The notes under the pieces: generated by a model
The model's input: the letters and a program-made list of their open reading frames with translations, nothing else
The model's database searches: none
Told to the model about the DNA's origin: nothing
From: Herminiimonas sp. CN
Lineage (GTDB): Bacteria; Pseudomonadota; Gammaproteobacteria; Burkholderiales; Burkholderiaceae_D
NCBI RefSeq assembly: GCF_000622895.1
Contig: NZ_AVCC01000001.1
Location: forward strand, 1-64,000
Length of the DNA: 64,000 nt
Direction: 5' to 3'
Translations under genes and position numbers: made by a program
Part shown: positions 49,199 through 64,000 of the stretch, one piece after another
Numbering within the stretch: position 1 is the first letter of the stretch
Layout: the number at the start of each line of letters is the position of its first letter

Positions 49199-49389
49199 AC
49201 CACCACCCCGTTCTCATTCAGCCATCCCAGCAAACCGGCCTTGTCGGTCGGAACGTCATGTTCAGCGGTCTGAACATTGCGGTAACCTTCTTTCTTCAGC
49301 GCTACACGCTGCTTGCTGGCATCCGCCTGGGAGCCGGCCCAGCGTGCATGGACATCGCCGTTCTCTCCGGCGGTTTGATAAAGTTTCAT
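49195..49389 (-). CDS. Small unknown phage protein
   Basis: 64 residues, not recognised: MKLYQTAGENGDVHARWAGS followed by a helix and a C-terminal DKAGLLGWLNENGVVV. Overlaps the exonuclease gene upstream and the regulator gene downstream by four bases each, which supports translation. Confidence 0.65.
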   Translation of the reverse strand: MKLYQTAGENGDVHARWAGSQADASKQRVALKKEGYRNVQTAEHDVPTDKAGLLGWLNENGVVV

Positions 49390-49937: not shown

Positions 49938-50008
49938 TGCTTTCCTCGCGAAAAGAGTCCCTGCAGGGCAGGGACTCGTGATGCACTACGAACGGAGATG
50001 TTTCAGTC

Positions 50009-50350
50009 TTATGCGGCTGCTTGCGCTTGTGCGTCGTTGGCGGCGGCCGGTATCGCCTTCTCCGCGGCGGCGACGGCTTTCTCAGCGGCGGTGACGGCCT
50101 TGTTGAGTTCCTTGACGGTAACGGCATGGGCTTTGACAGCAGCAGCGTGTTCTTTCATATACGCTTTGATGGTGTCCTCATGAGCCTTGGCGGCAGCTTT
50201 GGTCGCAGATGCATGTGTTTTATCCGCTGCGGTGACCGCAGCGATTGCGTTCTTGTGTGCGGTCTTGGCGTCCTTCAGTGCAGAAGAGGCGGCGATCTTG
50301 ACGGCCTTGATTTCGGACTGGGACAGGATTTTCGATTGGGTGCGTGCCAT
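50009..50350 (-). CDS. Ala/Lys-rich coiled-coil phage protein
   Basis: 113 residues from MARTQSKILSQ (AAGGAAA ribosome site). Almost entirely helical and built from Ala, Lys, His, Thr and Glu, with about 7-residue periodicity (KAAAKAHEDTIKAYMKEHAA). It looks like a basic coiled coil; histone-H1-like or scaffold-type functions are conceivable but unsupported. Confidence 0.65.
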   Translation of the reverse strand: MARTQSKILSQSEIKAVKIAASSALKDAKTAHKNAIAAVTAADKTHASATKAAAKAHEDTIKAYMKEHAAAVKAHAVTVKELNKAVTAAEKAVAAAEKAIPAAANDAQAQAAA

Positions 50351-50360
50351 GATGTTTCCT

Positions 50361-50600
50361 TTAATTTTCGGTTTGTGTGCGGGATGCACGGTATTTTTCG
50401 TTGAGCGTCGACACGTACCAGAGCTCGTTGAGCCGGGCGGCTCTTGAGATAAGACGGTCTACGATCGATTTGCGACGCGAAGATTGCGATTCGAGATCGA
50501 GGCAGGCCAGGATTTCTTCCTCAGTCAGCTCAGACAGAACATTGTTCAGTTTACTGACGGAAGCAAGTGCTTGACCTACGTACCAGCTGCGAATCGCCAT
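50361..50600 (-). CDS. Small unknown phage protein
   Basis: 79 residues, helical: VSKLNNVLSELTEEEILACL then LESQSSRRKSIVDRLISRAARL. Not recognised. It lies ten bases upstream of the Ala/Lys-rich gene start on the same strand. A 93-bp non-coding gap precedes it, which could hold a promoter (AT-rich near 50630-50690). Confidence 0.6.
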   Translation of the reverse strand: MAIRSWYVGQALASVSKLNNVLSELTEEEILACLDLESQSSRRKSIVDRLISRAARLNELWYVSTLNEKYRASRTQTEN

Positions 50601-50693
50601 CTTTTACTCCGTTACGGATACTACTCCGCAGTTGCTAAAAAGAAAAGTTCTAATGTAGAACGGCTTGATCTATATTTAGAGAATAGATCGGAG

Positions 50694-51446
50694 TTACCGA
50701 CGACGCGCCGGGGCAGTTGCTTTTTTCGGCGGCGCCGACTCGAACTGCGATACGTCCGGTTCGGTCTTCAGTCGGGTCATCGCTTCCTCCTTACGGGCGA
50801 AGCAGACTTCCAGGTCTTCGTTTGGTTCCGGGTTGCCGAAACGCAGCGAGGCGTAAGTCAGCGACTCGTCGAACGAGACTTCCGTCACCACCGAGACCGG
50901 CGGCAGCTGGAATGAACGCACTACCGAGGTGACGTAGGCGTCGAACGCTTTCAACGCCGTCGGCGATACCTTTAGAATCCATAACGGTGTGTCAGCTGTG
51001 GCGCCGGGAGGCAGTACGGCCAGCACGCGGGAGTTCTTGCAGGCCTTGCCGTTGCCGGCCGAACCGAACTGGTTCATCGGGCATGCGCCGCATGCGGATG
51101 CTTGTTTCACCGGACTGTTCTCGCTCGGCACCATCTGGGTCGGGTTGGAGCCGATCGAGAAGCAGGCCGGCGGCGAGATGTTATTCGGATCGTAGGCGCC
51201 CTCGTAGAAGCTGTTGGCCGACACGAAGTCGACGATCACCAGCTTGATCGGGCCGGCCGACTTGGTGCCATCCGGGAACTCGAACTTCTTGTCCTGGGTG
51301 ACCTTGATACTGTCGCCGCCGGGGGCGCCGACGCGCGATGCCATGTCGGTGACCTCCTTGGCGAGCAGCGCGCGGATGTCGACGATGTTGCCGGCAGTGG
51401 TTTTCTTGACTGCGACTGCGGTTCCTGCTGGTTTCTTTGTGGCCAT
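50694..51446 (-). CDS. Conserved phage protein with a CxxCPxNxFG motif
   Basis: 250 residues. N-terminal Ala/Lys tail (MATKKPAGTAVAVKKTTAG), a middle block with a cysteine cluster ACGACPMNQFGSAGNGKACK that could bind Zn or Fe-S, and a C-terminal Ala/Lys/Arg tail. A fold around IKLVIVDFVSANSFYEGAYD recurs in phages beside DNA polymerase and exonuclease genes; a single-strand DNA-binding role is possible by position only. No family name can be given with certainty. Confidence 0.65.
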   Translation of the reverse strand: MATKKPAGTAVAVKKTTAGNIVDIRALLAKEVTDMASRVGAPGGDSIKVTQDKKFEFPDGTKSAGPIKLVIVDFVSANSFYEGAYDPNNISPPACFSIGSNPTQMVPSENSPVKQASACGACPMNQFGSAGNGKACKNSRVLAVLPPGATADTPLWILKVSPTALKAFDAYVTSVVRSFQLPPVSVVTEVSFDESLTYASLRFGNPEPNEDLEVCFARKEEAMTRLKTEPDVSQFESAPPKKATAPARRR

Positions 51447-51484
51447 GATGTTCTTTCAGACTGAGGGATTGAGGGGATTGAGGA

Positions 51485-51898
51485 TTAAGCCTTGACAGCC
51501 AAACTTCTCAGGTTGATACGCCGTTTTACAAAGGCCGTGAGGCCGGGAAGCTGCCCTTTGGACTCGAAGATTTCTCGAGCAGCTACTTCTGAAACCCGTC
51601 GCTGGAACAAGTGGAAGTACTTGGTCTTAGCGACGTACTTCGCAAATGCATCGAAGTCGGTGATGTTGAAACTGGTGGCGCTGGTGATGCTGACGCTGGC
51701 GGACTTACCCTTGCCGGCATCGGTCTCTTCTGCATCGAGTCTTTCGAAGAGTGTAGACTCAGCGGCGGCAATCTTCCCTTCGATCTCTTTGATCTCAGCC
51801 TCCTTGGCACGCTTGATTTCGCGCAGCTCCCATAGTGTATCGATAGCTTTGCCGAGGGTCAGGGTTTTGGCGGCGGGCCGCAGTGCAACGACTGTCAT
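51485..51898 (-). CDS. Unknown phage protein with N-terminal coiled coil
   Basis: 137 residues. First 60 residues form a charged helix (LWELREIKRAKEAEIKEIEG, KIAAAESTLFERLD); the second half has FDAFAKYVAKTKYFHLFQRR and a terminal basic RRINLRSLAVKA. Not identified. Size and layout resemble small replication-region proteins such as Gam-like inhibitors, but nothing specific supports that. The gap upstream (51899-51968) has a TAGATACGATGTAGATCGTAG stretch that may be a promoter or operator. Confidence 0.55.
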   Translation of the reverse strand: MTVVALRPAAKTLTLGKAIDTLWELREIKRAKEAEIKEIEGKIAAAESTLFERLDAEETDAGKGKSASVSITSATSFNITDFDAFAKYVAKTKYFHLFQRRVSEVAAREIFESKGQLPGLTAFVKRRINLRSLAVKA

Positions 51899-51968
51899 GA
51901 TTGTACTCCTTTATGTTATGAATCGTAAATAGATACGATGTAGATCGTAGTAGATAGTAGAGCGGTGG

Positions 51969-52616
51969 TCAAGCAAACTCCTTGAATTGGATTGATCTGA
52001 CGGCACCGATCATTCGGGCGAACCACATCGGGTTGCCGGAAACATCGACTTTGGCCGGAGCGTCGGTGTAGTCGACTTCATCCAGCGGGACGTCGAGGTT
52101 GGCGCGCAGCCAATACTCGCTACGCCCGTGCATGGACATGCCCAGCTTGGTCCGCAGCAGCACCTGGGTTGCCAGCAACTTGGCTCTGCGCGCCGCAGAT
52201 GACGCCGCTTTCGGGTTGGTGATAACGTCGAGGTCGATACCCTTGACGGAGGCCAGGTCGATCTTGCCGTCCGGGCCATACTTCAGGTATCCGCCGACAC
52301 CGTTGAACACCACGCCGTCGATGGCGAAAGCCCGCTCTTTGCTTGGCCGGCGTCCATTGAACGAAGGTAAGGTACGGCTGCCGACATATTTGCCGGTGAA
52401 CTCCATGATCCGCGCCAGCGTGGTGTTGGAGGTCCAGCCGGTGCATATCTGCATCGTGCCGTCTGGGTAGAAGCGCACGATGTCGGTGTCGAAGTGCCGA
52501 ACCGCCAGATGATCGCCACGGTCCATAACCCGGGTATTGTTGCCAACCGGCTTGCCTACAGACCGATTGCGCGCGGTCTTGAGTGCGTCTTCACAGCGCT
52601 GGTGGTTCCATGCCAT
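51969..52616 (-). CDS. Conserved phage protein of unknown function
   Basis: 215 residues, no membrane segment. RVMDRGDHLAVRHFDTDIVRFYPDGTMQIC and TGWTSNTTLARIMEFTG are a recurring beta-rich block in phage early proteins, followed by a region rich in short hydrophobic strands and a C-terminal helical part. I do not recognise a named family. A good AAGGAGAACC ribosome site lies upstream. Confidence 0.6.
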   Translation of the reverse strand: MAWNHQRCEDALKTARNRSVGKPVGNNTRVMDRGDHLAVRHFDTDIVRFYPDGTMQICTGWTSNTTLARIMEFTGKYVGSRTLPSFNGRRPSKERAFAIDGVVFNGVGGYLKYGPDGKIDLASVKGIDLDVITNPKAASSAARRAKLLATQVLLRTKLGMSMHGRSEYWLRANLDVPLDEVDYTDAPAKVDVSGNPMWFARMIGAVRSIQFKEFA

Positions 52617-52658
52617 GATGGTTCTCCTTGGGATTAAGCGGATTAAGCGGACTGAGTA

Positions 52659-53243
52659 CTAAGCGTGCGTAGCTGGCTGCACCTTGAACCCGGCAGCCAG
52701 CAACTGTGACAGCAGGTTCTCAGTCGATGCCACGATCGGGTAATCCCGGGTGATCTTCGGGATGTGCGGCTCCAGCTCCGGCATGCGCTCCAGCAGCCGT
52801 TCGGTGGTGGTGCAGGAGCGCAGGAACGCCGTCATCTCGTCCTCTAGCGCCCAGTGCGCTTCGGCGAGTTTTTCGGCGCGCTGGTAGATTGGCAAGATCA
52901 GTTCGTAGTCCTGAGCAGTCAGGTTGCAGTCGAAGATGGCTGGGGTGACAAGGCATTCGAACTGCGTCGTGCCGTCCCACATATGCCGTCCGTCTAGGCG
53001 CTCGCGGTTGAACGCATTTTCGATAGCGTGTTTACTGTTTACATTTACGCGAGCTGTCCCCTGGAACCATTCTCTCGGGGCACCGGTGGTAAGGGCTTTA
53101 AACTCATCCGGTATTTTCGCATCCATGAGCTTGCGTACCAGGGCGCTCATTTCGCGCTCGATATCTTCCTTGTCCGTTTTAAATGTCGTTGCCGCGAGTA
53201 CATTGCCGAGGATTTCTGCGCGGAGTGCTTTACTTAATTTCAT
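52659..53243 (-). CDS. Phage protein, possible Nmad5 (nucleotide-modification-associated) family
   Basis: 194 residues, mostly helical, starting MKLSKALRAEILGNVLAATT, then LTTGAPREWFQGTARVNVN and a C-terminal TENLLSQLLAAGFKV. The start and the TGAPREWF block are reminiscent of the Nmad5 phage family; this is a tentative recall. It sits between DNA polymerase and other replication-side genes. Ribosome site AAGGAACGAC precedes the ATG. Confidence 0.5.
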   Translation of the reverse strand: MKLSKALRAEILGNVLAATTFKTDKEDIEREMSALVRKLMDAKIPDEFKALTTGAPREWFQGTARVNVNSKHAIENAFNRERLDGRHMWDGTTQFECLVTPAIFDCNLTAQDYELILPIYQRAEKLAEAHWALEDEMTAFLRSCTTTERLLERMPELEPHIPKITRDYPIVASTENLLSQLLAAGFKVQPATHA

Positions 53244-53265
53244 GTCGTTCCTTATGGGTTAAAAG

Positions 53266-55347
53266 TTATTTGGAATAATTCTCAGCGAAGCCCCCCTCGG
53301 AATTGAGGGGCAGGTCCGGGCACCATGGCAGTGGAGTGCGCATGGCTTTGATCAACTCGCGGTACGCTGCTTCGGCCGAGGCCTTACGCACGCATAGGAC
53401 GACTTCGTCATGGGTCGTCATCACCACGCGGCGCTTCGCACCCGCAGCCAGCATCTGTTCCATGACTACGATCCGGGCCAACGCCTGTACGATGTTCTCG
53501 CACAGCAGCCCGCCGTAGATTTTCTTGCGCATGTCCTTCGACTGATACGACCATTCGTCCCAGCCCTTGTCGCCGATCTTCTTTTTCAAGTCCGGGTATT
53601 TCAGGCACATGCCGTTGGGCAGCCAGATGCGCTCCTTCTCCCAGCTGAGCGGACCGTGCGAGCCTTCCCGGCCGGCGGCCATGTCTTCGATGACGCCCTT
53701 GCAGATTTCCCAACCAGCGACGATCTTCCAGTTCTTGCGGCGGTAGGTGTTGACGATCGTCTTGCAGCGATCGAGGTCGAAGAACACCGGCGGGCCGCCC
53801 AGTGCGCCCTTGGCCAGGGTGATCTGGAACTTGGGTGCGCCCATCTGGAAGCCGAGGCCCAGAACGCAGACTTTGCCGACGAAGCGCTCCATCTTGTCGT
53901 CCTTGGTGATCTCCCTGCCGTAGACGTGATCGGCGAAATTGCAGTACGCGTCGCGCCCGGTGCCGGCGTCTGCGGCTACGAACGCTTGCATCAAGTCGTC
54001 CTGCCCCCACAGCCAGCCGTTGACCCGGCACTCGATCTGGCCGGAGTCGCCGACCACCAGGACATGGCCTTTCGGCGCCAGAATCGACAGGCGCAGCTCG
54101 CCGCCTCGGGTCAGGTTCTGCATGTTCATCTTGTTGTTGCCGCCCATGCGACCGGTGTGCGCGCGATAGTAGGCGTACCCGACCGGCAGCGGCATGCCGT
54201 CTGCCCCGGCTTTCAGGAACCGCTCAGCGCGTGTGACGTTGGTAGTGGACTTCACCGCCAGCCGACAGTCGACTAGATTGCGGATGCGCTCCTGGCGCAG
54301 GGCCAGCTTGGCGATGTCTTTCTTGTGGTTGAGGTTAAGGTCGCTCGCCCACTCCTCGTGCATCTCGGGCAGATTGATGAAGTCGGCGTCGTCCTTGGCG
54401 AACGCATACGAGTACTTGTCGGCGTCATCGCGCTCGGCTGCCGGCTTCTTCATCCAGGCTGGGCTGATCTTGGTCGGTGGCTCGATGCCCTCGGCGCGCA
54501 GCAGGTCGGCGAAACGCTCATTGCTGCCGATGACGCGCTTGACCATCAGCATCAGGCGCTCCTTACCTTCCAACTCACGCTCCGGCCTGGTCTTGAGCAG
54601 TTCCTTCTCCGGGTACTGGGTGACGTCGACGATGTTGCTCATCAGGTCTTCGCGGTACTTGATCTCGCGCGCCAGCTCGACCTCGACCCTCGGGATGTCG
54701 ACTTTCAGCACCGGGTCGCAGAACATGCGGATCGTCATGTCAATCAGCTTTAGCTCGGAAGCGGGGTAGACCTCCAGCATCTTTTCAAAAATCAGCAGGG
54801 TCAGCTCGACGTCCATCGCGCAGTACTCGGCCATGTCCTTGTAGAGCTGCTTAGGCAGGTTCTGCACGCCCTTGCTCTGCTCCAGTACGTCTGGGATTTT
54901 GTTGCCTACCCCATAATACTGAGCGACTTCGTCGAGAGAAGCGCCAATATCATTGCTATGAAGGCCGCGCGCCATCGAAAGCGTGTCATAGTAAGTTCGC
55001 GGAACAACACCATGATGATGGGAAAGTATAAAACCGTCAAAAGCAGTGTTATGGCAAAGGAGATCATGGGTCTTCCAGTCGATCGTTTTGAGGAGGGCGG
55101 CGATCTTCGACGTCGGCACTACCTTGGTCTTGCGCTTGCCGATCTTGATCCCGACCATGTGCGCCTTGAAACGCGGGTCGCGGATGTATTCGGAAGTACT
55201 GAGTTTCCTGAGCGTGTAATCGGCGTCCCAGTAGGTCTCGTAATCGAGCACTACGAGATGCGCCCAGTCGATCTTAGAGCGTAAGACTGCCGGGCGTGAA
55301 AAGGCGGGCTCCGGCGTAGCCTCGGATACGGCGTTAGACCAGGACAT
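53266..55347 (-). CDS. Family A DNA polymerase with 3'-5' exonuclease domain
   Basis: 693 residues from an ATG with AAGGAAAAC upstream. N-terminal DEDD exonuclease: LVVLDYETYWD (Exo I), LLCHNTAFDGFILSHH (Exo II) and YCAMDVELTLLIF (Exo III). Polymerase motifs: A, GDSGQIECRVNG near residue 432; B, ERFVGKVCVLGLGFQMG near 490; C, MTTHDEVVLCV near 647. Motif B has Leu and Phe where E. coli Pol I has Phe762 and Tyr766; motif A has SG in place of YS. The metal Asp and the steric-gate Glu are kept. No 5' nuclease domain. Phage replicase. Confidence 0.93.
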   Translation of the reverse strand: MSWSNAVSEATPEPAFSRPAVLRSKIDWAHLVVLDYETYWDADYTLRKLSTSEYIRDPRFKAHMVGIKIGKRKTKVVPTSKIAALLKTIDWKTHDLLCHNTAFDGFILSHHHGVVPRTYYDTLSMARGLHSNDIGASLDEVAQYYGVGNKIPDVLEQSKGVQNLPKQLYKDMAEYCAMDVELTLLIFEKMLEVYPASELKLIDMTIRMFCDPVLKVDIPRVEVELAREIKYREDLMSNIVDVTQYPEKELLKTRPERELEGKERLMLMVKRVIGSNERFADLLRAEGIEPPTKISPAWMKKPAAERDDADKYSYAFAKDDADFINLPEMHEEWASDLNLNHKKDIAKLALRQERIRNLVDCRLAVKSTTNVTRAERFLKAGADGMPLPVGYAYYRAHTGRMGGNNKMNMQNLTRGGELRLSILAPKGHVLVVGDSGQIECRVNGWLWGQDDLMQAFVAADAGTGRDAYCNFADHVYGREITKDDKMERFVGKVCVLGLGFQMGAPKFQITLAKGALGGPPVFFDLDRCKTIVNTYRRKNWKIVAGWEICKGVIEDMAAGREGSHGPLSWEKERIWLPNGMCLKYPDLKKKIGDKGWDEWSYQSKDMRKKIYGGLLCENIVQALARIVVMEQMLAAGAKRRVVMTTHDEVVLCVRKASAEAAYRELIKAMRTPLPWCPDLPLNSEGGFAENYSK

Positions 55348-55504
55348 TGTTTTCCTTTGCATCGATTTCTGCGTACAGTCGATTAATCTCGTCCAGCATG
55401 CCCCAGGTCTCTTCTTCGTTTGCGTCGATCTCGTCAGAGAGCAGACTGATACGAGCCTTTATCTCGTCGAGCGTCATCGCCGAGGTGGGTGTAAATTTAG
55501 TCAT
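55334..55504 (-). CDS. Small acidic helical protein between thyX and the polymerase
   Basis: 56 codons, below most length cut-offs: MTKFTPTSAMTLDEIKARIS then LLSDEIDANEEETWGMLDEI and a last helix. Acidic, coiled-coil-like. It starts three bases after the thyX stop with AAGGG nearby and overlaps the polymerase start by 14 bases. The tight packing supports it. Confidence 0.6.
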   Translation of the reverse strand: MTKFTPTSAMTLDEIKARISLLSDEIDANEEETWGMLDEINRLYAEIDAKENNVLV

Positions 55505-55507
55505 GGC

Positions 55508-56305
55508 TCAAATCCCTTCTTGGCAGCGGTAAGATTGCCAGCCGCGGAAGTTCGCGTGCTGTATGTCATTTTCAGCGTCGGCAAAGGCGACATGCTCGAA
55601 CGGCGAGGCATGGCCGCAGTCCCTGAGCATGATAGCCAGCGCTATGTCCTTGTCGATGCTCGGTGCCGAACCGTCGTGATTCAGGTAGGAGACCCGGGCA
55701 CAACGGGCCGCAGAAATTAGGCTGATGTCCTCTTCGGGCAGAGCATTTATTTCCTCGCCGGAGATGTAGGGGGCATGCCCGATGCGCTCGATCGGCACCG
55801 AAGCGTCCATCGCTTCCTTCATCGCCCGTGCCAGTTCGTGGATATTCGGATCGGCAGCGGGGTGCAGTCGCAGCCTGAAGAAGTTATCCCAGGCAGTGGC
55901 GGTGACGATCGTATGCATCCATTGGAACGGTTCGAGGATGCGGTTGACGACCTGTTTGTGCAGGCCTAGGTTAGCCATAGGGCCGGCGATGTTGGCTGCC
56001 TGCCGCGCAGCCTCCGACCAGAGCTGCTTCGCGCTTTCAAGTTTGGTTCCGACCAGTTCCACACCGGCCTGCATCCCCGGCTGATTGCTGCCCCAATGAA
56101 TCGGTATGGCCGGGTCGTTGCGCACTTGTTCAATCATCTTGGCGACCGGGATGGCGCGGGACGATGAGGCGTTGCGGGAAAATACGCGGTGGGTCATGAA
56201 CTCGCTGTGAATGAAGCGCGGATAGACTAGCTGCAGCGTGGTCAGGCGCGCACCGGTCGGCGACACGCTGTCGAGAACGACCTTGGCGGAAGTAGTAGTT
56301 TTCAT
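55508..56305 (-). CDS. thyX: ThyX-family flavin-dependent thymidylate synthase-like protein
   Basis: 265 residues. Contains THRVFSRNASSSRAIP, the phage form of the ThyX R-H-R-x7-S motif (here T-H-R), and a C-terminal GHASPFEHVAFADAEND. ThyX methylates dUMP using methylene-THF and FAD. Phage copies raise dTMP supply or, in some phages, make modified pyrimidines; which applies here is unknown. Start overlaps the helicase stop by four bases (ATGA). Confidence 0.88.
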   Translation of the reverse strand: MKTTTSAKVVLDSVSPTGARLTTLQLVYPRFIHSEFMTHRVFSRNASSSRAIPVAKMIEQVRNDPAIPIHWGSNQPGMQAGVELVGTKLESAKQLWSEAARQAANIAGPMANLGLHKQVVNRILEPFQWMHTIVTATAWDNFFRLRLHPAADPNIHELARAMKEAMDASVPIERIGHAPYISGEEINALPEEDISLISAARCARVSYLNHDGSAPSIDKDIALAIMLRDCGHASPFEHVAFADAENDIQHANFRGWQSYRCQEGI

Positions 56306-57666
56306 GCCGCTTTCTCCTCCGCAAACAAGCTCAGTAAGTTTGTCATTTTTGAATCCTTCTCCAGTAATCGTGCGTAGACTTTCTGTTCGATCGTGCCCTC
56401 GGCAAGGATCACGATGATTTCGGTTTTTTCCTTCTGACCGGCGCGCGCCTGGCGCTTGTTGCCCTGGCTGAAGTGCTCCAGGTCGTAGGTCGGCGAGGCC
56501 CAGATCGTGGTCGAGCCGCGCGTCAAGGTCAGGCCATGCGCGGCGGACTTCGGGTGCGCGAACATCACGTCATAGAATCCGGCCTGGTAATGTTTCACCA
56601 TGTCGGTGCGCTCGCGGTCGGAGGCGTTACCGTCCATCACGCAGTAGGTCAGTCCACGTTTCTCGGCCTGCTTGATCAGTTCGTCTCTTTGATGCTTCCA
56701 GAGGAAGAACACCAGAGGGTGCTTGCGGTCCTCGACCAGGTCGAGGACCAGCTCGTAACGGCCGGTGTCAACGACGTGATACGTGTCCTCGTTTTCATAC
56801 ACGGCGCCGGACGCGATCTGCAGTAGTTTGGTGGTGACGGCGGCGGCGTTGATGGCCGTTACCTTGGTATTGGCCTTGAGCGACATGATCTGGGTCTTCT
56901 CCATCTCCAGATAGGCCTTCTTCTGCTTGGCACTCAAGTGGTACTGCATCGTGTAGCTGTGGGTGGCAGGGATGTCGATGCAGTCCTCGAATTTGTGACG
57001 GATCGTAATGTCCGCGATCAGCCCGTAGATCGCTTCTTCCGAGCCGTCCTTGTCGACCCACTTGACCATGTTCGGCAGCGGCCCGACTTGCTCCGGCGCG
57101 CACACTGCGGCCCGGAAACCGAAGAACTGGCTGCCCAGGCGCTTGCCGTCGTCGAGGATTTGCACCGGGTTCCAGATGTCGCAGATGGTGTTGCTGTTGG
57201 GCGTGCCGGACATCACGCTGCGATACCTGAAATATTTTCTGATCTTGTTGAGCGCCTTGGAGCGAGCGCTGGTGTGATGCTTAAAACTTGATACTTCGTC
57301 AACTATTAATGTGTCGAACTTCTTGAAGAAGGCCGGCTTCTGCTTCAGCAGCCAGGTGACGGCGTCGATATTGGTGATGTAGACGTCGGCGTCGGCGGCG
57401 AAGGCCTTCTCGCGGTTCTCCGCATACGCGACCGAGCAGCTGATCTGCGGCGCGAACTTGCCGAAGTCGTCTTCCCACGCGGAGCGCAGCAGGGACTTGG
57501 GGGCGATGACGATCGCGCAGCCACCGGACTTTTTGCGGCGCTTGGCAAAGGCCATGATCTGCACAAATGTTTTTCCCGTACCTGGGTCGCTCATGTCGAA
57601 GATGATGTCGGACTTGTCCATGACCTTCAGGGAGAAGGTCTGGTGTTTCATCGGTTTGTAATCCAT
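56302..57666 (-). CDS. SNF2/DEAD-like DNA helicase or translocase
   Basis: 454 residues from MDYKPMKHQTFSL (AGAGGTG upstream); the frame is open 17 codons earlier. Helicase superfamily 2 core: Walker A DPGTGKT (27-33), motif Ia IVIAPKSLLRSAWEDDF, DEVS Walker B (123-126), motif III MSGTPNSNTICDIWN, and a second RecA lobe with VFFLWKHQRDELIKQ, YDVMFAHPKSAAHGLTL and the arginine-finger region GNKRQARAGQKEKTEIIVIL. Typical of phage SNF2-like remodelling helicases that act in replication or repair. Confidence 0.92.
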   Translation of the reverse strand: MDYKPMKHQTFSLKVMDKSDIIFDMSDPGTGKTFVQIMAFAKRRKKSGGCAIVIAPKSLLRSAWEDDFGKFAPQISCSVAYAENREKAFAADADVYITNIDAVTWLLKQKPAFFKKFDTLIVDEVSSFKHHTSARSKALNKIRKYFRYRSVMSGTPNSNTICDIWNPVQILDDGKRLGSQFFGFRAAVCAPEQVGPLPNMVKWVDKDGSEEAIYGLIADITIRHKFEDCIDIPATHSYTMQYHLSAKQKKAYLEMEKTQIMSLKANTKVTAINAAAVTTKLLQIASGAVYENEDTYHVVDTGRYELVLDLVEDRKHPLVFFLWKHQRDELIKQAEKRGLTYCVMDGNASDRERTDMVKHYQAGFYDVMFAHPKSAAHGLTLTRGSTTIWASPTYDLEHFSQGNKRQARAGQKEKTEIIVILAEGTIEQKVYARLLEKDSKMTNLLSLFAEEKAA

Positions 57667-57932
57667 CAATGCACCTCTCTTGGGCTGACGCGCGGTAACG
57701 TCGCGTTGATCCGGCACGACTCAACCAACGTGTCGTACATGTTCGGGGTTGCGAAGTCGGCGTGGGTTACGAATGACACCTGCATGCTGAATAACAGCAC
57801 CGCGGGGTCAGTGAGTGGGTCTTTCTCGTATAGGCAAGATTCGATGACTGCGTTGTGTAAGCCCTGTGTCAGGATCAGTAAATCGGGCGACGGGTTGCCG
57901 ACCGAGGCGAGGGCGGATGAGAAGCGGTTCAT
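57666..57932 (-). CDS. Small unknown phage protein upstream of the helicase
   Basis: 88 residues (ATG at 57932; a GTG one codon earlier is open). MNRFSSALASVGNPSPDLLI then a hydrophobic stretch VLLFSMQVSFVTHADFATPN. Not recognised. Starts inside the stop of the nuclease gene and its TGA overlaps the helicase ATG (TGATG), so it is translationally coupled. Confidence 0.65.
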   Translation of the reverse strand: MNRFSSALASVGNPSPDLLILTQGLHNAVIESCLYEKDPLTDPAVLLFSMQVSFVTHADFATPNMYDTLVESCRINATLPRVSPREVH

Positions 57933-58642
57933 CACACGCCCCGTTCACAGTGGCCGGTGCCGCTGGGACCGTATGGGCACCACTTGCAATTGAAAATGTT
58001 CGGAGAAGCTGGGAACTCGGTGCATTCCGTCATCGCGAAGCCCTTCTTGGTGAAGTTGTGCTTGAATCGCAGTCCCTGCTGGCGGGTGAAGGTGTTCTGG
58101 GTCAGGTCATCGACGTCCAGGTACCAGAGTTCGGTGTGGATCAGTTCGAGCTTCGGGTAACGCAGAAAGGACACCAGCTGGTAGAGCTGGACCTGTTCGG
58201 CATGGCTGACTTCGTTGCCGAACTTCTTGCCGGATTTGTAGTCGATGATTACCGCTTCGTATTCAGACAGATGGACGATCGCGTCGAGTTTGAGGCGTAG
58301 CCAGGCTTCCTTGGCGCGCCACTCGACCGGCTCCCAGTTGCTATCCATGGCCCACTCGCCTTCGGTAGAGACCATGCCGTCTTTGTAGAGCTTCTGTAGA
58401 GAGTCGAACTCGGCTTGGAACTTGCCCATCTCGCGGCCGAACGGACCTTGCCCCTTGACGTAGTTCTCTGCTTCGTCATGGATGCGTGAGCCGCGATCAT
58501 TGGCGTGCTCGGTCTTGCCGGGCGGTAGCGGGCGCTCCGGCTCCGGGATTTTCTGTCCGTACTGGAGTTGTGCTCGCAGCTTGCACTGGCCGAAGGTCTT
58601 GGCTTTGGAAATGCTCCACTGGGTGATCGGGATAATCTTCAT
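57932..58642 (-). CDS. Cas4/RecB-like PD-(D/E)XK nuclease with Fe-S cysteines
   Basis: 236 residues. ITQWSISKAKTFGQCKLRAQ (C20) and a C-terminal NCKWCPYGPSGTGHC (C219, C222, C232) give the four cysteines of a Cas4-type Fe-S cluster. The nuclease core has D120 (LRLKLDAIVHLS), D134-x-K136 (VIIDYKSGKK) and QVQLYQLVSFLR. PF12705-type exonuclease, probably end processing together with the adjacent helicase and the DEDD exonuclease. No CRISPR genes are present, so this is a phage recombination role. Confidence 0.9.
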   Translation of the reverse strand: MKIIPITQWSISKAKTFGQCKLRAQLQYGQKIPEPERPLPPGKTEHANDRGSRIHDEAENYVKGQGPFGREMGKFQAEFDSLQKLYKDGMVSTEGEWAMDSNWEPVEWRAKEAWLRLKLDAIVHLSEYEAVIIDYKSGKKFGNEVSHAEQVQLYQLVSFLRYPKLELIHTELWYLDVDDLTQNTFTRQQGLRFKHNFTKKGFAMTECTEFPASPNIFNCKWCPYGPSGTGHCERGV

Positions 58643-58670
58643 GTCTACTACTTTCTAAAATAGATCGAAA

Positions 58671-59381
58671 TTAGATTATCGACCCATGGGCGTCAAAAAG
58701 GCAATCATTTGCTTCAATTGCTTCGTCGACGCATTCATCACTGGTGAGCCAGTCGTGCTCTTTCTCCAGCTGGTTGTAAATCCAGTCGGCGAAGGAGGAG
58801 ACATATTCATTCATCGCTTCTTCGATTTCTTCCGGGCAGGAGCCGGGTTCGACTTTGGTGCGGTAGCATCCGCGCTCGTCCCCGCTGATCATGATGCGGG
58901 AGTCCTGCAGGACTTCGTCCTGCTCCTCATCCTCATCCATCACATAGCCGGTCAGCCGCAGTGTGACCAGCCGCAGGGTGATCAGGTCGTACAGCGCCTC
59001 GCCCTCAGCAGCCAGAGAGAATAAACGATCGTCTGTGCAGCCTCGTCCGGTATATTCCCGCAGCCGGGTCACGCAGCCCTTGAGCTGGGTGATGTACAGA
59101 TCGCCCGAATAACAGCAGCCATCGCCCTGACTCCAGAACCCGGAGAAGGAGATGTCGGGCTGCGTGTAGGACTTGCCGTTGTGTGGCCGGCTGTGCTGCA
59201 GCCCGACCTCGATGCCGATCAGCTTGCCAATCGTCACCGCATCTTCATAGACGAACTCCCACCATTCATATTCCGGATCATGCTCGCGCCATTTATCTCT
59301 GGCTTTGTTCTTGGCAGCGTTATCCAGCTCGTCGAAGGTGAACTCGGTCTTCTCTTCGACTTCAGCAATGTCTTCACTCAT
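58671..59381 (-). CDS. Conserved acidic phage protein (SGFWSQGDG type)
   Basis: 236 residues, strongly acidic. TFDELDNAAKNKARDKWREH, EYEWWEFVYEDAVTIGKLIG and ISFSGFWSQGDGCCYSGDLY recur in a widespread phage family sometimes annotated as an antitoxin-like protein; I know no proven function. Three Cys pairs are present. The start sits inside the shared flank of the repeat cassette, with AGGAGAAAGAC upstream that is identical in the second cassette copy. Confidence 0.7.
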   Translation of the reverse strand: MSEDIAEVEEKTEFTFDELDNAAKNKARDKWREHDPEYEWWEFVYEDAVTIGKLIGIEVGLQHSRPHNGKSYTQPDISFSGFWSQGDGCCYSGDLYITQLKGCVTRLREYTGRGCTDDRLFSLAAEGEALYDLITLRLVTLRLTGYVMDEDEEQDEVLQDSRIMISGDERGCYRTKVEPGSCPEEIEEAMNEYVSSFADWIYNQLEKEHDWLTSDECVDEAIEANDCLFDAHGSII

Positions 59382-59657
59382 GTCTTTCTCCTGATTTAAC
59401 TACCGCCGTCGCCGTGGCCGTCGCCGTCGCCGTCGCCGTCGCCGTAGCCGTGGCCGTGGCCGTAGCCGTGGCCGTGGCCGTGGCCGTGGCCGTAGCCGTG
59501 GCCGTGGCCGTCGCCGTCGCCGTAGCCGTGGCCGTGGCCGTGGCCGTAGCCGTGGCCGTGGCCGTCGCCGTAGCCGTCGCCGTGGCCGTCGAGGGTGATT
59601 AGACGTCCGTCGGTCAGGCCCAGCAGACGGCGGGTCAGTTTAAGGATGAGGTCCATT
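59379..59657. repeat. Gly-X repeat cassette, copy 1 (direct repeat)
   Basis: Both ends match copy 2 (62489-62749) exactly: 51 bp at 59607-59657 (N-terminal coding part plus start codon) and 21 bp at 59379-59399 (stop region plus ribosome site of the next gene). Between them is a tandem array of GGC-NAC hexamers of differing length and composition. The same orientation in both makes them direct repeats 3.1 kb apart. Confidence 0.85.
59396..59656 (-). CDS. Gly-His/Asp/Tyr dipeptide-repeat protein, copy 1
   Basis: 86 residues: a 23-residue head (MDLILKLTRRLLGLTDGRLI, then TLD) shared with copy 2 at one difference, then 31 Gly-X dipeptides and a final Ser. X is His 15 times, Asp 9, Tyr 6 and Gly once. 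All Gly codons are GGC and X codons are NAC, so the array is a hexanucleotide tandem repeat and slippage would keep the frame. The His-rich array could bind metal. Its start overlaps the 3' end of the NinX gene by 17 bases. No close match to a named family; Gly-rich proteins of this style are sometimes seen in phages. Confidence 0.75.
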   Translation of the reverse strand: MDLILKLTRRLLGLTDGRLITLDGHGDGYGDGHGHGYGHGHGHGYGDGDGHGHGYGHGHGHGHGYGHGHGYGDGDGDGDGHGDGGS

Positions 59658-60185
59658 CAGTTCTTCCGGTATCTCAACTTCATCACCGAGTTTCGATGCA
59701 ACGTAGCAACGCATGGCGGCGATCAGGGGTGTGGGGCCTCGAAAAGAGCGGTCTTTGTGCCATACAATCGTTGCTCCAGACTTTCTACAAGTCATGGCGT
59801 AGTAAGTTCCGTGCGCTGCACTGTCGGGACGATGGTACTTGCGAAAAGAAATATCCTCACGCTCAATGAGCGGCCCACTTAACGCCCAGTCAGTTGAGTA
59901 GGGTAGGAGTACCGCTTTACTATTTACAGCGTCCCATCCGGGTTCGGTGTCGAGTGCCTTCGCCACCGCCCAATCAAGAGCAGCGCCAACCAATTCTGAT
60001 GTTTTCGTTTTCATGATCTCTCCCCCAGAAGGTGCAAATAAGACAGCCTTTAAATCGCTGATGTTCTGCGCCTCTCTTACCTGTTTTCGTTGTTGTCTAT
60101 TACGCAGAATTTCCTTGGCCTGCATGAGGCTACAGTCCTTCTCGGCTACTACATGCTCGATGTCTTCTCGGGTAATCGGGTTCAT
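59640..60185 (-). CDS. NinX-like (DUF2591) phage protein with N-terminal extension
   Basis: 181 residues. The C-terminal 124 residues are the P22 NinX/PF10765 domain: MKTKTSELVGAALDWAVAKA, YSTDWALSGPLIERE, and GPTPLIAAMRCYVASKLGDE. The N-terminal 57 residues (TREDIEHVVAEKDCSLMQAK and following) look like a separate small helical protein fused in frame. The ATG at 60185 overlaps the VWA gene stop (ATGA); an internal ATG at 60014 has a strong GGGGGAGAG, so two products are possible. The last residues and the stop lie inside the repeat cassette. Confidence 0.82.
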   Translation of the reverse strand: MNPITREDIEHVVAEKDCSLMQAKEILRNRQQRKQVREAQNISDLKAVLFAPSGGEIMKTKTSELVGAALDWAVAKALDTEPGWDAVNSKAVLLPYSTDWALSGPLIEREDISFRKYHRPDSAAHGTYYAMTCRKSGATIVWHKDRSFRGPTPLIAAMRCYVASKLGDEVEIPEELNGPHP

Positions 60186-61285
60186 ACCTCAATCTCCACT
60201 GTTTCACCGAACGGCCCTTGCTGTGCGTTGGTGCAGCACCACAGAGTTGGGTAGTCCGGCACGTCGAAGTCAGTCGGGCCATACAAGTCTGTCAGGTAGA
60301 CCAGACACACCGGCCGGATACTGTTCTCTTCAACCCAGTCGAATACCGGCTTGAACGCGGTGCCGCCGCCGCCGCATGCTTCCAGCTTGAATGGGTCGTG
60401 GCGGGCGAAGGTCTTGGTACCGGCGACTTGGGCGTCGCAGTAGACGACGTGGACGTTGGCCGGCAAGGTCTCGGCAATGATGGATTCGCACTCGGCGGAA
60501 AACGCATCGAGCGTGGTCTGGTCGATCGAGCCCGAGGTGTCGACCCCGATCACGATGTCGCCCATGCTCTCGCTGTAGAGCGACGGCATGTAGACGCCAT
60601 GCACCAGCATCGCCTTGTTCGGCTTGGTCCAGGCATAGTCGTCCTTGCTGCGCTCGGTGATGAAGCGGCGTAGTGCTTCCCTCCAGTCGACCTGAGGCTT
60701 CAGCAGGCCGTCGACGAAGCGCTCCAGCGCACCGGGCAGCTTGCCCATCATCTTGGCGGCGTTGGCGGCCTGGATCGTGGCGACTTTCCATTCGCGCGTG
60801 GCTTCTGTCTGTGCTGCCGGATCGGGCTCGCCAGGCTGCATGTCATCCAGCGGAGCGCCGTGGCCGTTATTGCCGTCTTTGTCAGGTTCCGGCAGCAGGG
60901 TGTAGATGTGGTCAGCGGACATGTCCTTGAATGCCGGGTTGAGCAGGGCGGTACCTTCGAACTTGAAGCCGACGTCTTCCAGCAACCGATTGATGGCATA
61001 GTCCGCGGCTTGGTTCCAGCGCGAGTGGGTGCGTTCGCCCAGGCGAGACATGTGGTCCAGCACACAGTGCATGACCTCATGGGCGATGACCGCTTTGGTC
61101 AAGCCGGCGCTGATGCCGTTGACAAAGGCCGGGTTGTAGCTGATGGTCTTGCCGTCGACCGCCATGGTCTTGACGGAGGCATCTTCGGCCAGCTTCAGAC
61201 GTAGAGCCAGTGCGCCGAAGAAGGGCTGGTCGAGGATCAGCGTGGCTCGCGCGCGGGTGAGTTTGGTTGCGGCTTCTTGGTTCAT
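60182..61285 (-). CDS. Putative metallopeptidase with C-terminal VWA-like domain (DUF2201)
   Basis: 367 residues from MNQEAATKLTRARATL (AGGAAAAG upstream). The N-terminal domain (PF13203 type) has the zinc-peptidase motif HEVMH at 69-73 with ALALRL and HCVLDHMSR around it. The C-terminal DUF2201 VWA domain has the MIDAS DTSGS at 249-253 (GDIVIGVDTSGSID) and Thr in GGGGTAFKPVF. Such proteins usually act with a MoxR-type AAA+ ATPase as metal-dependent chaperones or maturation factors. No such ATPase lies in the window; it may be past 64000. Flanked by the two repeat cassettes. Confidence 0.88.
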   Translation of the reverse strand: MNQEAATKLTRARATLILDQPFFGALALRLKLAEDASVKTMAVDGKTISYNPAFVNGISAGLTKAVIAHEVMHCVLDHMSRLGERTHSRWNQAADYAINRLLEDVGFKFEGTALLNPAFKDMSADHIYTLLPEPDKDGNNGHGAPLDDMQPGEPDPAAQTEATREWKVATIQAANAAKMMGKLPGALERFVDGLLKPQVDWREALRRFITERSKDDYAWTKPNKAMLVHGVYMPSLYSESMGDIVIGVDTSGSIDQTTLDAFSAECESIIAETLPANVHVVYCDAQVAGTKTFARHDPFKLEACGGGGTAFKPVFDWVEENSIRPVCLVYLTDLYGPTDFDVPDYPTLWCCTNAQQGPFGETVEIEV

Positions 61286-61440
61286 GATTCTTTTCCTGTC
61301 CTTACATAGACCCAGGCTGCGACCCATGCGCCACCTTCGTCGTTAGGGCGGACTGCGGCGTTGTCATCAATCTCGATGTCGTTGTCTGAGCCGTCTGCCC
61401 AGAACTCGATCGCGAGCTGCCTGATTTCGTAGTTGTTCAT
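61282..61440 (-). CDS. Small acidic phage protein
   Basis: 52 residues, MNNYEIRQLAIEFWADGSDN then DIEIDDNAAVRPNDEGGAWV and AAWVYVRTG. Chosen start at 61440 has AAGGATG upstream and overlaps the preceding gene stop by four bases (ATGA); a longer open frame to 61584 lies in another gene. Overlaps the VWA gene start by four bases. Function unknown. Confidence 0.65.
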   Translation of the reverse strand: MNNYEIRQLAIEFWADGSDNDIEIDDNAAVRPNDEGGAWVAAWVYVRTGKES

Positions 61441-61658
61441 TTCGTCATCCTTATTTCCAAAGCCTTCATTACCAGCTCCACCGCCATCGGCGGTCCGTCG
61501 GCGGCGTGCCCCTCTATCCGCTTGATCCACCAGAGCTGGGTATCGGTGTCCCAGGAGTCGAACTTGTTTTTGTTCGAACTCCATCTGGTGTCATCAAGCC
61601 ATAAGTTTCGCAGCGCCAAGCGGTATAACTGGACCTTGACGAGGGCTTCTCCGCCCAT
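61437..61658 (-). CDS. Small unknown phage protein
   Basis: 73 residues from MGGEALVKVQLYRLALRNLW; the start overlaps the stop of the upstream gene (TGATG). Contains tryptophan-rich WSSNKNKFDSWDTDTQLWWI. Not recognised. It belongs to the tightly packed run with the 277-aa, 52-aa and VWA genes. Confidence 0.65.
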   Translation of the reverse strand: MGGEALVKVQLYRLALRNLWLDDTRWSSNKNKFDSWDTDTQLWWIKRIEGHAADGPPMAVELVMKALEIRMTK

Positions 61659-62491
61659 CACAGATGTGTGGAGATAGTACTCAGGATGCTTGCTGCTTCC
61701 TGCGCCACGCGAGCGCGGGCCTGATACGACCGGCGCAGGCAACCGGGCGGTTCGTGCAGGTCGCGCATCACGCGGATGCAGACGTCATTGAGTTCCTTGT
61801 TGTTGGTGATGTTCAGCTTGGGCAGCATTAGGGCCAGCTCGGTGACATTCTCGACGATACTGTCGCGAAAGACTGGCTTGTCCTTGAGCATCGTGGTCTC
61901 CAGCTTCGAGACCACATCAAATAGGCGTTGCCAGCACTCCCGGACTGCGCCGGCCTGGCGCTCGGCTACTGTGGCGTCGATACTAGCCTTGATCTCTTCC
62001 AGCGCTTCGTTGCCGACATCGACCCGGAAGTCCTTGGCGTCCGGTACCGGCAAGAAACTGACGTTCAGCCCAAAGCGTGACTGGATGTCGTCAGCCGGTG
62101 GATAGTCCTGGGCATCGTACATGGTACCCAAGCGCTGGCGGGCAGCGGACACCAGCTGTGGATAGTCCACGACGAATATTTTGGTCAGCGCCTCGTTGTC
62201 GCTTTTGAATTGGCGCATTGCTGCGGTGTAATCCATGTACGCCTTGGCCGGCAGCAGGCGGTCGCCGTTGTCGCCCCACGGCAGCGTCATCGTGTAGTGG
62301 TAGTCGCGGATGCGACCGGCGTGCTTGGCCAGCGGGTCGAGTGCGGACTTGTCGATCAGTAGCTTGTTGTAACGTCCGCCGTCCTGCGCGCTATGGGTGG
62401 CATCAACCTCGAGTGAGACTGCGCGGTCATGTTTGCGGGCCGTCCACTGGCGAATGTTGAGGTTCGCGATCATCGCTCGGTTCTGCAGCAT
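61658..62491 (-). CDS. Phage protein linked to VWA/AAA+ modules (DUF3150-like)
   Basis: 277 residues, mostly helical. MLQNRAMIANLNIRQWTARK and the following block resemble the DUF3150-type proteins found next to MoxR and VWA genes in phages and plasmids; a central YHYTMTLPWGDNGDRLLPAK and a helical C-terminus with ATVAERQAGAVRECWQRLFD follow. Role unknown; probable partner of the VWA protein. Its start codon and AGGAGAAAGAC ribosome site lie in the shared flank of cassette copy 2. Confidence 0.65.
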   Translation of the reverse strand: MLQNRAMIANLNIRQWTARKHDRAVSLEVDATHSAQDGGRYNKLLIDKSALDPLAKHAGRIRDYHYTMTLPWGDNGDRLLPAKAYMDYTAAMRQFKSDNEALTKIFVVDYPQLVSAARQRLGTMYDAQDYPPADDIQSRFGLNVSFLPVPDAKDFRVDVGNEALEEIKASIDATVAERQAGAVRECWQRLFDVVSKLETTMLKDKPVFRDSIVENVTELALMLPKLNITNNKELNDVCIRVMRDLHEPPGCLRRSYQARARVAQEAASILSTISTHL

Positions 62492-62749
62492 GTCTTTCTC
62501 CTGATTTAATTACCACCGTAGCCGTCGCCGTAGCCGTAGCCGTCGCCGTAGCCGTGGCCGTGGCCGGAGCCGTGGCCGGAGCCGTCGCCGTAGCCGTAGC
62601 CGTAGCCGTGGCCGTCGCCGTAGCCGTCGCCGTAGCCGAAGCCGTCGCCGTAGCCGTCGCCGTCGCCGTCGCCGGAGCCGTCCAGAGTCATCAGCCGGCC
62701 GTCGGTCAGGCCCAGCAGACGGCGGGTCAGTTTAAGGATGAGGTCCATT
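62489..62749. repeat. Gly-X repeat cassette, copy 2 (direct repeat)
   Basis: Matches copy 1 (59379-59657) over 51 bp at 62699-62749 and 21 bp at 62489-62509, with a shorter and differently composed hexanucleotide array between. The second copy has the same relation to its neighbours: head overlapping the 3' end of one gene, tail supplying the ribosome site of the next. Confidence 0.85.
62506..62748 (-). CDS. Gly-Asp/Tyr/His dipeptide-repeat protein, copy 2
   Basis: 80 residues. The head MDLILKLTRRLLGLTDGRLM is near-identical to copy 1. Then come 28 Gly-X dipeptides where X is mainly Asp and Tyr with some His and Ser, and a final Asn. It is much poorer in His than copy 1. Composition has diverged within the array while the flanks stay identical, as expected if the array slips or recombines faster. 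Starts 21 bases inside the 3' end of the preceding gene. Confidence 0.75.
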   Translation of the reverse strand: MDLILKLTRRLLGLTDGRLMTLDGSGDGDGDGYGDGFGYGDGYGDGHGYGYGYGDGSGHGSGHGHGYGDGYGYGDGYGGN

Positions 62750-63038
62750 TGGACTGGTTGCAGTCAACGGTGAACAGCACAGCTTTCAGCTGCGGGCGCA
62801 CAGTGCAGGAGGCGTCGAGCACGGTGTCTGCGACTGGGCCATCCTTGAGTTGACCGAGGCCCTCGGAGGTGCCCCACTTACGAATGCAGCGGGCTTTGTC
62901 GATGTACATTTCAGTTTCGGTACGAGTGACGTAACCGACGAAGACGAAGCCGCGGTCGAGGGCGACAATTTGGATTTGCGGGGTAGTAGGGCTCAAGTTT
63001 TCGGCTTGTTGGACTATCGGTGTTTTCTTGGTTGCCAT
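62727..63038 (-). CDS. Unknown phage protein truncated or ended within the repeat cassette
   Basis: 103 residues. IVALDRGFVFVGYVTRTETE then IRKWGTSEGLGQLKDGPVAD and a VRPQLKAVLFTVDCNQSK block resemble a recurring phage early protein with the I-R-x-W-G-T pattern. The last residues (WTSSLN) are encoded by the cassette head in another frame. So its natural C-terminus may have been replaced. Function unknown. Confidence 0.65.
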   Translation of the reverse strand: MATKKTPIVQQAENLSPTTPQIQIVALDRGFVFVGYVTRTETEMYIDKARCIRKWGTSEGLGQLKDGPVADTVLDASCTVRPQLKAVLFTVDCNQSKWTSSLN

Positions 63039-63043
63039 ATTCT

Positions 63044-63388
63044 TTATCCTTTAGAGGTTGTAGCCATTCTTCTTTTGAGGGTTCCGCGAGTATCCGTAGA
63101 GCGGTCTTTGTGTTTTTCGATCTGGGTCTGAGTGAATAGCCAACCTTCCTGAATGGCAAGTTGCAACGCTTCGATGATTTTTTCGGCATGCTCGACGGTA
63201 TCTACAGCCAGATGATTCTTACCGGCGAGAGTTTTTAAGTAGCATCCGAAGTGGTTTTCATGGTGATCACAGCCTTGTTCGAGCTGGCCGGCAGCTTCCC
63301 AGGAGTTTCCTTTATAGAACTGAATTACGGGTTGCCCAGACGTGTTGTCCGCCGGCGTTTCGGATATGTTGATTACGAACTGTTTCAT
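63044..63388 (-). CDS. Unknown phage protein
   Basis: 114 residues. MKQFVINISETPADNTSGQP, a His/Cys-containing QGCDHHENHFGCYLKTLAGK that could bind metal, and a basic C-terminal RGTLKRRMATTSKG. Not recognised. Starts with AAGGATAAAGAAC upstream on the minus strand and is followed after five bases by the next gene. Confidence 0.6.
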   Translation of the reverse strand: MKQFVINISETPADNTSGQPVIQFYKGNSWEAAGQLEQGCDHHENHFGCYLKTLAGKNHLAVDTVEHAEKIIEALQLAIQEGWLFTQTQIEKHKDRSTDTRGTLKRRMATTSKG

Positions 63389-63393
63389 GTTCT

Positions 63394-63627
63394 TTATCCT
63401 TTAAGTCTGAGTTCAATAAATCTCTGCATAATGGCCTGGGCCAGCGGGTCGCCGTCATCGGCCATGTGTTTGATCTTGACCATGCCGGAGGCTTCGAGCT
63501 TCATCGCGTTGGTAATTTTGTAGCACTGTTCGACTGTTGAGGCCCAGGCGCGTTGCTGTTCGGTAGAGTCAAAGACGATATGGCCGCGGGATGCTTGCCA
63601 CTTGCGGTTCTCTTCAGACTCGTTCAT
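63394..63627 (-). CDS. Small unknown phage protein
   Basis: 77 residues, helical: RKWQASRGHIVFDSTEQQRA, then KITNAMKLEASGMVKIKHMA. Not recognised. Overlaps the upstream gene stop by four bases. Confidence 0.6.
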   Translation of the reverse strand: MNESEENRKWQASRGHIVFDSTEQQRAWASTVEQCYKITNAMKLEASGMVKIKHMADDGDPLAQAIMQRFIELRLKG

Positions 63628-63809
63628 CCTGTCATCCTCCTCTCTACGTACATCGCCCAGACCTTCTCGGCTCTGGGTATGCCGGCTTTGGCTTCTTCCA
63701 GGCAGCGCTTGTAGCCGTTCTGGTTATCGAAGTAATACTCCAGGCCCTCTGCTTTGGGGTCTACGTACAGGGCGTACCAGGTCGTCCGCTCTTTGACAGA
63801 CCAGGTCAT
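63624..63809 (-). CDS. Small unknown phage protein
   Basis: 61 residues: MTWSVKERTTWYALYVDPKA then a helical GYKRCLEEAKAGIPRAEKVW. Not recognised. Its ATG overlaps the stop of the partial gene to its right and its TGA overlaps the next gene, as throughout this run. Confidence 0.6.
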   Translation of the reverse strand: MTWSVKERTTWYALYVDPKAEGLEYYFDNQNGYKRCLEEAKAGIPRAEKVWAMYVERRMTG

Positions 63810-64000
63810 CGTGTCAGCCTGTACTTCAAAGCGAATGCGACGATCTTCAGATTTGTCGGGTCCGTGCTGTTCATTACGTCTGCAATCCAGCGCTCGGGGT
63901 TTCTATAGAAGAGACTCAGCTTAAAGTGGTCTCTGCTTGGGCCTACACTATCGATAATCGCCCGCACCCAGCACAACTGCTCTGGTGTCTCGCGTAGCTT
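63806..64000 (-). CDS. Unknown phage protein, 5' part beyond the window
   Basis: The minus-strand frame is open from the window edge for 64 codons to a TGA at 63806-63808: TPEQLCWVRAIIDSVGPSRD then HFKLSLFYRNPERWIADVMN and a short basic tail. No family recognised. It supports the reading that the prophage continues to the right. Confidence 0.55.
   Translation of the reverse strand, partial: KLRETPEQLCWVRAIIDSVGPSRDHFKLSLFYRNPERWIADVMNSTDPTNLKIVAFALKYRLTR

Follow-up and report, generated by a model that had tools for sequence, protein, structure and literature searches.

Borg Sm ribonucleoproteins carry amino-acid tandem repeats inside the Sm protein (PMC9879509), and the Hfq of Acinetobacter/Moraxellaceae has a Gly-rich repetitive C-terminus (PMC5663733). 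Repeats at gene borders have been described in Cluster K mycobacteriophages, where start-associated sequences, a 13-bp non-coding consensus that includes the ribosome site, are found at many gene starts (PMC3203893). Here we analysed the first 64,000 nucleotides of contig NZ_AVCC01000001.1 of Herminiimonas sp. CN (the window), in which a small gene for a short head followed by a (Gly-X)n tail, termed the Gly-X gene below, is present twice. As the best explanation of the whole, held with moderate confidence, we propose a conserved pair of phage genes in which the first encodes an Sm-like protein and the second is the Gly-X gene. The narrower claim, that the Gly-X gene is identified by its pairing with the Sm-like gene, is very probably correct.

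The phage locus resembles the Borg Sm proteins in combining an Sm fold with fast-evolving disordered tandem repeats on an extrachromosomal element, but its repeats are Gly-X in composition and form a separate, overlapping gene of bacteriophages with extra copies elsewhere. With Acinetobacter/Moraxellaceae Hfq it shares an Sm-like core and a long Gly-rich repetitive tail, although the Hfq tail is in cis and host-encoded while the phage tail is a separate open reading frame (ORF). Like the start-associated sequences, the phage repeats lie at gene borders with a ribosome site; unlike them, the repeated unit is an entire translated gene. Both the block between the two copies and the genes around them are part of the N4 gp24/gp25-type MoxR + VWA module, yet the other MoxR/VWA/DUF3150 loci examined had no Gly-X genes nearby, contigs L101 and L191 excepted. 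The conserved module of two phage genes pairs an Sm-like fold with a low-complexity protein that has its own gene. Disordered tails of Sm proteins are important in RNA biology and condensates, and a tail gene that gains or loses a single repeat unit from one isolate of a phage to the next offers a small system for direct tests of what such tails do and how they evolve.

We found that the predicted structure of the partner agrees with the Sm fold, a small barrel made from a bent beta sheet of five strands (AlphaFold2 model, predicted local distance difference test score (pLDDT) 85.5, five strands and two short helices). The best Foldseek match was 3by7 (E 3e-3), which was also the best VIA match (Z 8.4, 68 residues aligned, 2.4 A). 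About 49 of the 50 best PDB matches of the model were Sm/LSm proteins, with Lsm1-7, archaeal SmAPs and spliceosomal Sm proteins among those after 3by7. The model therefore points to an Sm/LSm fold, and the agreement among the matches is more persuasive than the Z-score. Against Pfam DUF6948 (PF22253) the partner scored 14.6 and 14.7 bits, below the curated cut-off of 27 bits, yet its structural neighbours in BFVD were named DUF6948 (35% identity), together with phage 'Sm-like' proteins; we therefore call it DUF6948-like. No paper mentioning DUF6948 was found in a literature search, and the best structural matches, 3BY7 (Sm-like) and the DUF6948 proteins of BFVD, say nothing of a Gly-X neighbour.

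Pairing was examined across phages with the DNA pattern T[LF]xxx(GX)7, searched in IMG/VR. It matched at least 11 unrelated contigs with small ORFs of the form M..LTLDG(XG)n, and in nearly all contigs found in this way the upstream gene was a DUF6948-like homolog. L101 and L191 were found around distant DUF3150 and phrog_5162 homologs. In L101, seven Gly-X ORFs, of which the last is incomplete at the locus end, have another head, LWPLFSSGxLATLDG, and stand at almost every border of the MoxR, DUF6948-like, DUF3150 and VWA genes, and in L191 two Gly-X ORFs (ILWSLRLAPARTLPG) surround a DUF6948-like gene. A hidden Markov model of 17 DUF6948-like sequences, run on all 324 loci, matched about 20 lineages, and in every one of them a Gly-X run came immediately after the matched gene. 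Most of these lineages had been found through the Gly-X pattern; six were found through the upstream gene alone and form an unbiased test. The Gly-X gene was behind the partner in six out of six: RcapNL, ctOK67, cthkR962, Barba18A, Barba19A and L326, comprising cultured Rheinheimera and Rhodobacter phages, two assembled phages and one bacterial genome (L326). Judged by its recurrence in about 20 lineages, the border between the two genes is an old fixed site.

The partner's conserved K-W codons (AAATGG/AAGTGG) contain the start codon of the Gly-X gene in the window phage (W), in relatives A (3300029992 and siblings) and B (3300045972) and in the majority of single-copy lineages; among pairs that overlap, most show this placement. 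Beyond the clade formed by W, A, B and J (a prophage in the Janthinobacterium metagenome-assembled genome palsa_998) the pair is mostly present once per contig. RecT, ERF, Sak and YqaJ genes were located within about 7 kb of it in the contigs tested. The pair is new to the libraries searched: the partner is below the DUF6948 cut-off in Pfam, and at E 0.01 no PHROGs match was obtained for seven pair proteins or for the two window copies and their partner. It occurs in 115 Rheinheimera phage records and in Rhodobacter phage RcapNL, annotated only as hypothetical or 'lamprin'. In phage ctOK67 (MW202613.1, L315 2731-3045) the Gly-X gene bears the latter name, after the lamprey matrix protein; the label presumably stems from the low-complexity sequence.

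Several searches delimited this distribution. A scan of 368 other bacterial genomes of the class gave no match to the strict pattern TLDG(XG)6. Gly-X proteins were not seen in the cassette-free VWA loci L034, L035, L037 and L038, nor next to distant phrog_5162 homologs. The head gave nothing by tblastn against phages and plasmids at E up to 10, probably because heads are clade-specific (LTRRLLGL..., LWPLFSSG..., M..LTLDG...) and tails are masked as low complexity. The metagenomic contigs L212, L217, L271, L289 and L299 end in or beside a Gly-X array, which suggests that these repeats break virus assemblies and that copy numbers are undercounted.

The Gly-X protein is a short head with a (Gly-X)n tail in which X is mostly Tyr, Asp, Ser, Asn or His; in W, both copies have the consensus head MDLILKLTRRLLGLTDGRL[IM]TLDG. 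An AlphaFold2 model placed a helix at residues 2-11, and residues 17-80 had pLDDT below 50, so that the tail is predicted to be disordered. TrAA12 (PF22807) matched only the low-complexity part (25.5 and 15.5 bits, Pfam cut-off 30.9), and no consistent RNA hairpin was found in the head (z -1.5 to +1.1). We compared the 24-residue head among 11 pooled copies and found proportions of synonymous (pS) and non-synonymous (pN) differences of 0.60 and 0.10 (pN/pS about 0.16). This pattern of substitution indicates purifying selection on the head at the protein level, as would be the case for a translated small gene. The Gly-X composition of the tail is likewise kept while the Gly codon changes (W uses GGC, J uses GGG and B2-B4 a mixture) and where codons are irregular, as in A2 and B2-B4; the A3 tail is down to 9 residues. 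These features could also belong to an early host-takeover or membrane-active peptide aimed at a host protein and unrelated to the Sm-like partner: the head is short and amphipathic/hydrophobic, with the predicted helix, the gene lies in the early region, and the tail evolves fast. We consider this unlikely, since the Sm-like gene adjoins the Gly-X gene in every lineage examined.

Within the window the two Gly-X genes lie in the same orientation, 3,092 bp apart, on either side of the DUF3150-like gene, two small ORFs and the DUF2201-VWA and NinX genes (Table 1). The earlier note, made from the window sequence, had described this arrangement as two cassettes bracketing these genes, each with 51 and 21 identical bp at its ends and a variable hexamer array between, and this description proved correct to the base. 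The head occurs only twice in the entire 3.38-Mb genome (E 2e-9 and 5e-9), which excludes chance as the source of the likeness. The GGC-NNC hexamer arrays of W1 and W2 differ in length and unit order and have no match elsewhere in the genome. Past the 51 identical bases the heads differ at six consecutive codons, in the third base only, so that the identity is a sharp mosaic and not an even similarity along the copy. These six differences fall within one 22-nt stretch of 93 (chance about 1e-4), and such clustering argues that recent copying replaced the ends and not the middle.

Table 1. Features of the Gly-X region, in window coordinates.
Feature	Position	Strand	Remarks
DUF6948-like Sm/LSm-fold (predicted) partner, 103 aa	62727..63038	-	K-W codons AAATGG contain the W1 start codon
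Gly-X gene copy 1 ('home' copy, W1)	62506..62748	-	ORF 80 aa; head MDLILKLTRRLLGLTDGRLMTLDG + (GX)n + GGN stop
Head-end 51 bp, copy 1	62699..62749	-	Identical to 59607-59657
Hexamer array, copy 1	62506..62676	-	GGC + Y/D/H/S/F codons
Tail-end 21 bp, copy 1	62489..62509	-	Same 21 bp as at 59379-59399; after the stop codon come the ribosome site and ATG of the DUF3150 gene
DUF3150-like gene, next after copy 1	61658..62491	-	Pfam PF11348, E 4e-4, under curated cut-off
Small ORF, 101 aa	61437..61742	-	Kept in relatives A and J
DUF2201 metallopeptidase + VWA protein (N4 gp25-type)	60182..61294	-	Pfam; start taken at MNQEAATK
NinX gene	59640..60185	-	Pfam PF10765; final codons and stop inside copy 2
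Gly-X gene copy 2 (W2)	59396..59656	-	ORF 86 aa; between NinX and phrog_5162 gene
Head-end 51 bp, copy 2	59607..59657	-	Identical to 62699-62749
Hexamer array, copy 2	59396..59584	-	GGC + H/D/Y codons
Tail-end 21 bp, copy 2	59379..59399	-	Same 21 bp as at 62489-62509; after the stop codon come the ribosome site and ATG of the phrog_5162 gene
phrog_5162-type gene, next after copy 2	58671..59381	-	PHROG match
PD-(D/E)XK exonuclease, same early region	57932..58642	-	Pfam PF12705

Related prophages had been named in the earlier note as the place to look for other borders and copy numbers, and both were found to vary, with two copies of the head in W and J, three in A and four in B, besides the seven Gly-X ORFs of L101. 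The border between the DUF6948-like and DUF3150 genes is occupied in W, A, B and J, by a tandem pair in B and with a 56-aa ORF between in J. The border before the phrog_5162 gene holds a copy in W, J and B (tandem in B) and none in A, which has its extra copies at the borders between 83-aa and 84-aa genes and between the VWA and 58-aa genes. Upstream of the phrog_5162-side copy, W has NinX, B a 105-aa homolog and J an HNH-like ORF that ends in a NinX tail. This J ORF (L050 2082-2783, 233 aa) is HNH/AP2-like by eye, has no Pfam match and closes with the NinX C-terminal tail in a second copy (SKLGDEVEIPEEL), as though the arrival of an endonuclease gene had separated NinX from its former tail. 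In phage B (L033 5397-5858) the DUF3150 gene right after the tandem Gly-X pair is shortened to 153 aa, compared with 277.

Copying between loci is also observed in the relatives. J1 and J2, at different borders, have in common a 94-nt array block, with a Gly-to-Arg unit private to them; none of 200 unit shuffles matched this block. Within phages, head pS was 0.07-0.28 (W, J, A), as against 0.48-0.79 for flanking genes between phages. In all, the extra copies quite likely arise by local duplication and homologous recombination. The ribosome site of W1, AGGAGAAAGACATG, is that at the DUF3150 border of relative A; W2 has the same site before the phrog_5162 gene, which is not common to J or B. On these sequence grounds copy 1 was probably the source and copy 2 the recipient, with the ribosome site copied along.

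Head codons 8-17 (window 59607-59636) are nearly identical at silent sites among W, J and B4, although the remaining genes of these phages have almost reached silent saturation; this hints that phages recently exchanged the segment. Such exchange could mean that the cassette mainly serves as a common sequence at which early modules are swapped between phages, as in boundary-sequence models, and the different upstream genes at the second border in W, J and B, where the cassette and phrog_5162 stay, would fit. We regard this as quite unlikely to be its main role, because the head is selected as a protein and because, far beyond the clade, the pair is present once per contig, a setting that calls for no joint.

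A mobile or selfish coding cassette, inserting at borders and providing a stop codon upstream and a ribosome site downstream, would explain why copy number and border vary, why the upstream gene's stop codon lies inside the unit in W1, W2, B1, B2, B3 and J2, and why W2 has the ribosome site of W1. This, too, is improbable. No terminal inverted repeats and no integrase or recombinase of the unit's own were noticed, extra copies are confined to one early-gene region, the head is selected as a protein, and the home site is fixed in about 20 lineages. Borders do vary in A compared with W, B and J, but flanking gene content changes as well and no clean empty site was found. Of the modular, possibly mobile cassette suggested in the earlier note, copying within phage genomes therefore stands, while an autonomous element found no support. 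Its further suggestion that the unit carries the next gene's ribosome site holds in W and fails in the relatives, where the sites downstream of Gly-X copies differ. Deletion of the 3.1-kb block by recombination between copies, also foreseen there, is possible in principle and was seen in none of four related phages.

The overlapping start codon and the ribosome site that follows would also suit a translational spacer, an ORF that only couples upstream to downstream translation and whose peptide is incidental. The low head pN/pS and the retention of the Gly-X make-up with different codons (GGC, GGG, GGT), including the irregular ones noted above, make this very improbable.

The arrays grow and shrink by hexamers. 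Among Barba isolates whose partner gene is 100% identical, the arrays show a difference of a single hexamer unit at each of two places, besides AAC-to-TAC changes. Internal duplications of 65-66 nt were present in the A1 and B1 arrays, and no array length differences were seen among assemblies of phage A. In the long pure arrays of most lineages the Gly codon is (nearly) uniform within a lineage (GGC, GGG or GGT), and X codons likewise agree in their third base but vary in the first; X residue shares are Y 0.47, D 0.30, S 0.10, N 0.08 and H 0.03. Near-invariant silent sites together with X codons that vary in the first base were observed in W, J, B, L198, L220, L326 and others. Codon bias alone does not explain this uniformity, since the other genes of W use GGC for 66% of Gly codons and C-ending codons for 63-82% of Y/D/H/N. 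Our explanation is fast tandem turnover combined with selection for mixed X residues, with mutational bias as the alternative. The J arrays (L050 1814-2098 and 6473-6691) are (GGGNAC)n and form a canonical G-quadruplex motif over 130-200 bp on the coding strand. Although this motif and the NNC X codons with variable first base could recall a conserved G-quadruplex DNA element or a diversity-generating retroelement, we rejected both as hardly credible: G3 runs occur only in J, second-base changes are restricted to tolerated residues, and, in the Herminiimonas genome, the two reverse transcriptase genes are on other contigs and no other GGCNAC array exists that could be a template.

The reading that we prefer, a Gly-X gene paired with a Sm-like gene, can be put as a mechanism. 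The Gly-X protein would be made by translational coupling in stoichiometry with a predicted Sm-like ring and would act as its separately encoded low-complexity tail, a functional role that we put forward tentatively and by analogy. The tail could concentrate the ring and its nucleic acid close to proteins that the phage makes early for recombination and replication; binding, condensation and the effect on recombination are what we infer here. In W and its kin the gene was quite likely duplicated to neighbouring borders, with homologous recombination keeping the copies alike, in W including the downstream ribosome site. The fullest version is a split ribonucleoprotein-like machine: a Sm-like ring with a hypervariable Gly-Tyr/Gly-Asp protein that acts in trans to condense the nucleic acid of the phage together with recombination proteins, whose arrays turn over by hexamers under selection for mixed X residues and whose dose is tuned by copies at neighbouring borders. 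This we consider speculative and rather unlikely to hold in all its parts.

A number of observations count against the proposed pairing and role. The pairing and the fold are argued from sequence and models, Z 8.4 and E 3e-3 are middling values, and a common fold shows no function. Only the six lineages found through the upstream gene are free of search bias, and in RcapNL, Barba and cthkR962 the two genes do not overlap and are a few to about 75 bases apart. Common origin of all Gly-X proteins is not proven, and low-complexity tails could arise repeatedly. Extra copies stand behind genes that are not Sm-like (NinX, VWA, MoxR region), so that the protein is not tied to the partner's border alone. 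The B copies are not homogenised (head pS 0.47), and the W1 and J1 heads are as close as those of W1 and W2.

An integrase gene at 46114-47340 identifies the region as a prophage, and the IMG/VR record 2585427722_000007 (67.8 kb) contains the W locus. After the Gly-X region come genes for the PD-(D/E)XK exonuclease, a helicase, ThyX and DNA polymerase. From 46114 to 63976 the window thus combines an integrase prophage with a DNA polymerase/ThyX/helicase/exonuclease/MoxR-VWA early block resembling that of lytic N4-like phages; an N4-like assignment of the DUF2201-VWA type of protein is noted in the Presley record. The DUF2201-VWA protein itself is called 'HNH endonuclease' in PHROG 1314 and many GenBank phage records, and others of its type are labelled 'homing endonuclease' or 'DNA repair ATPase', apparently through propagated misannotation.

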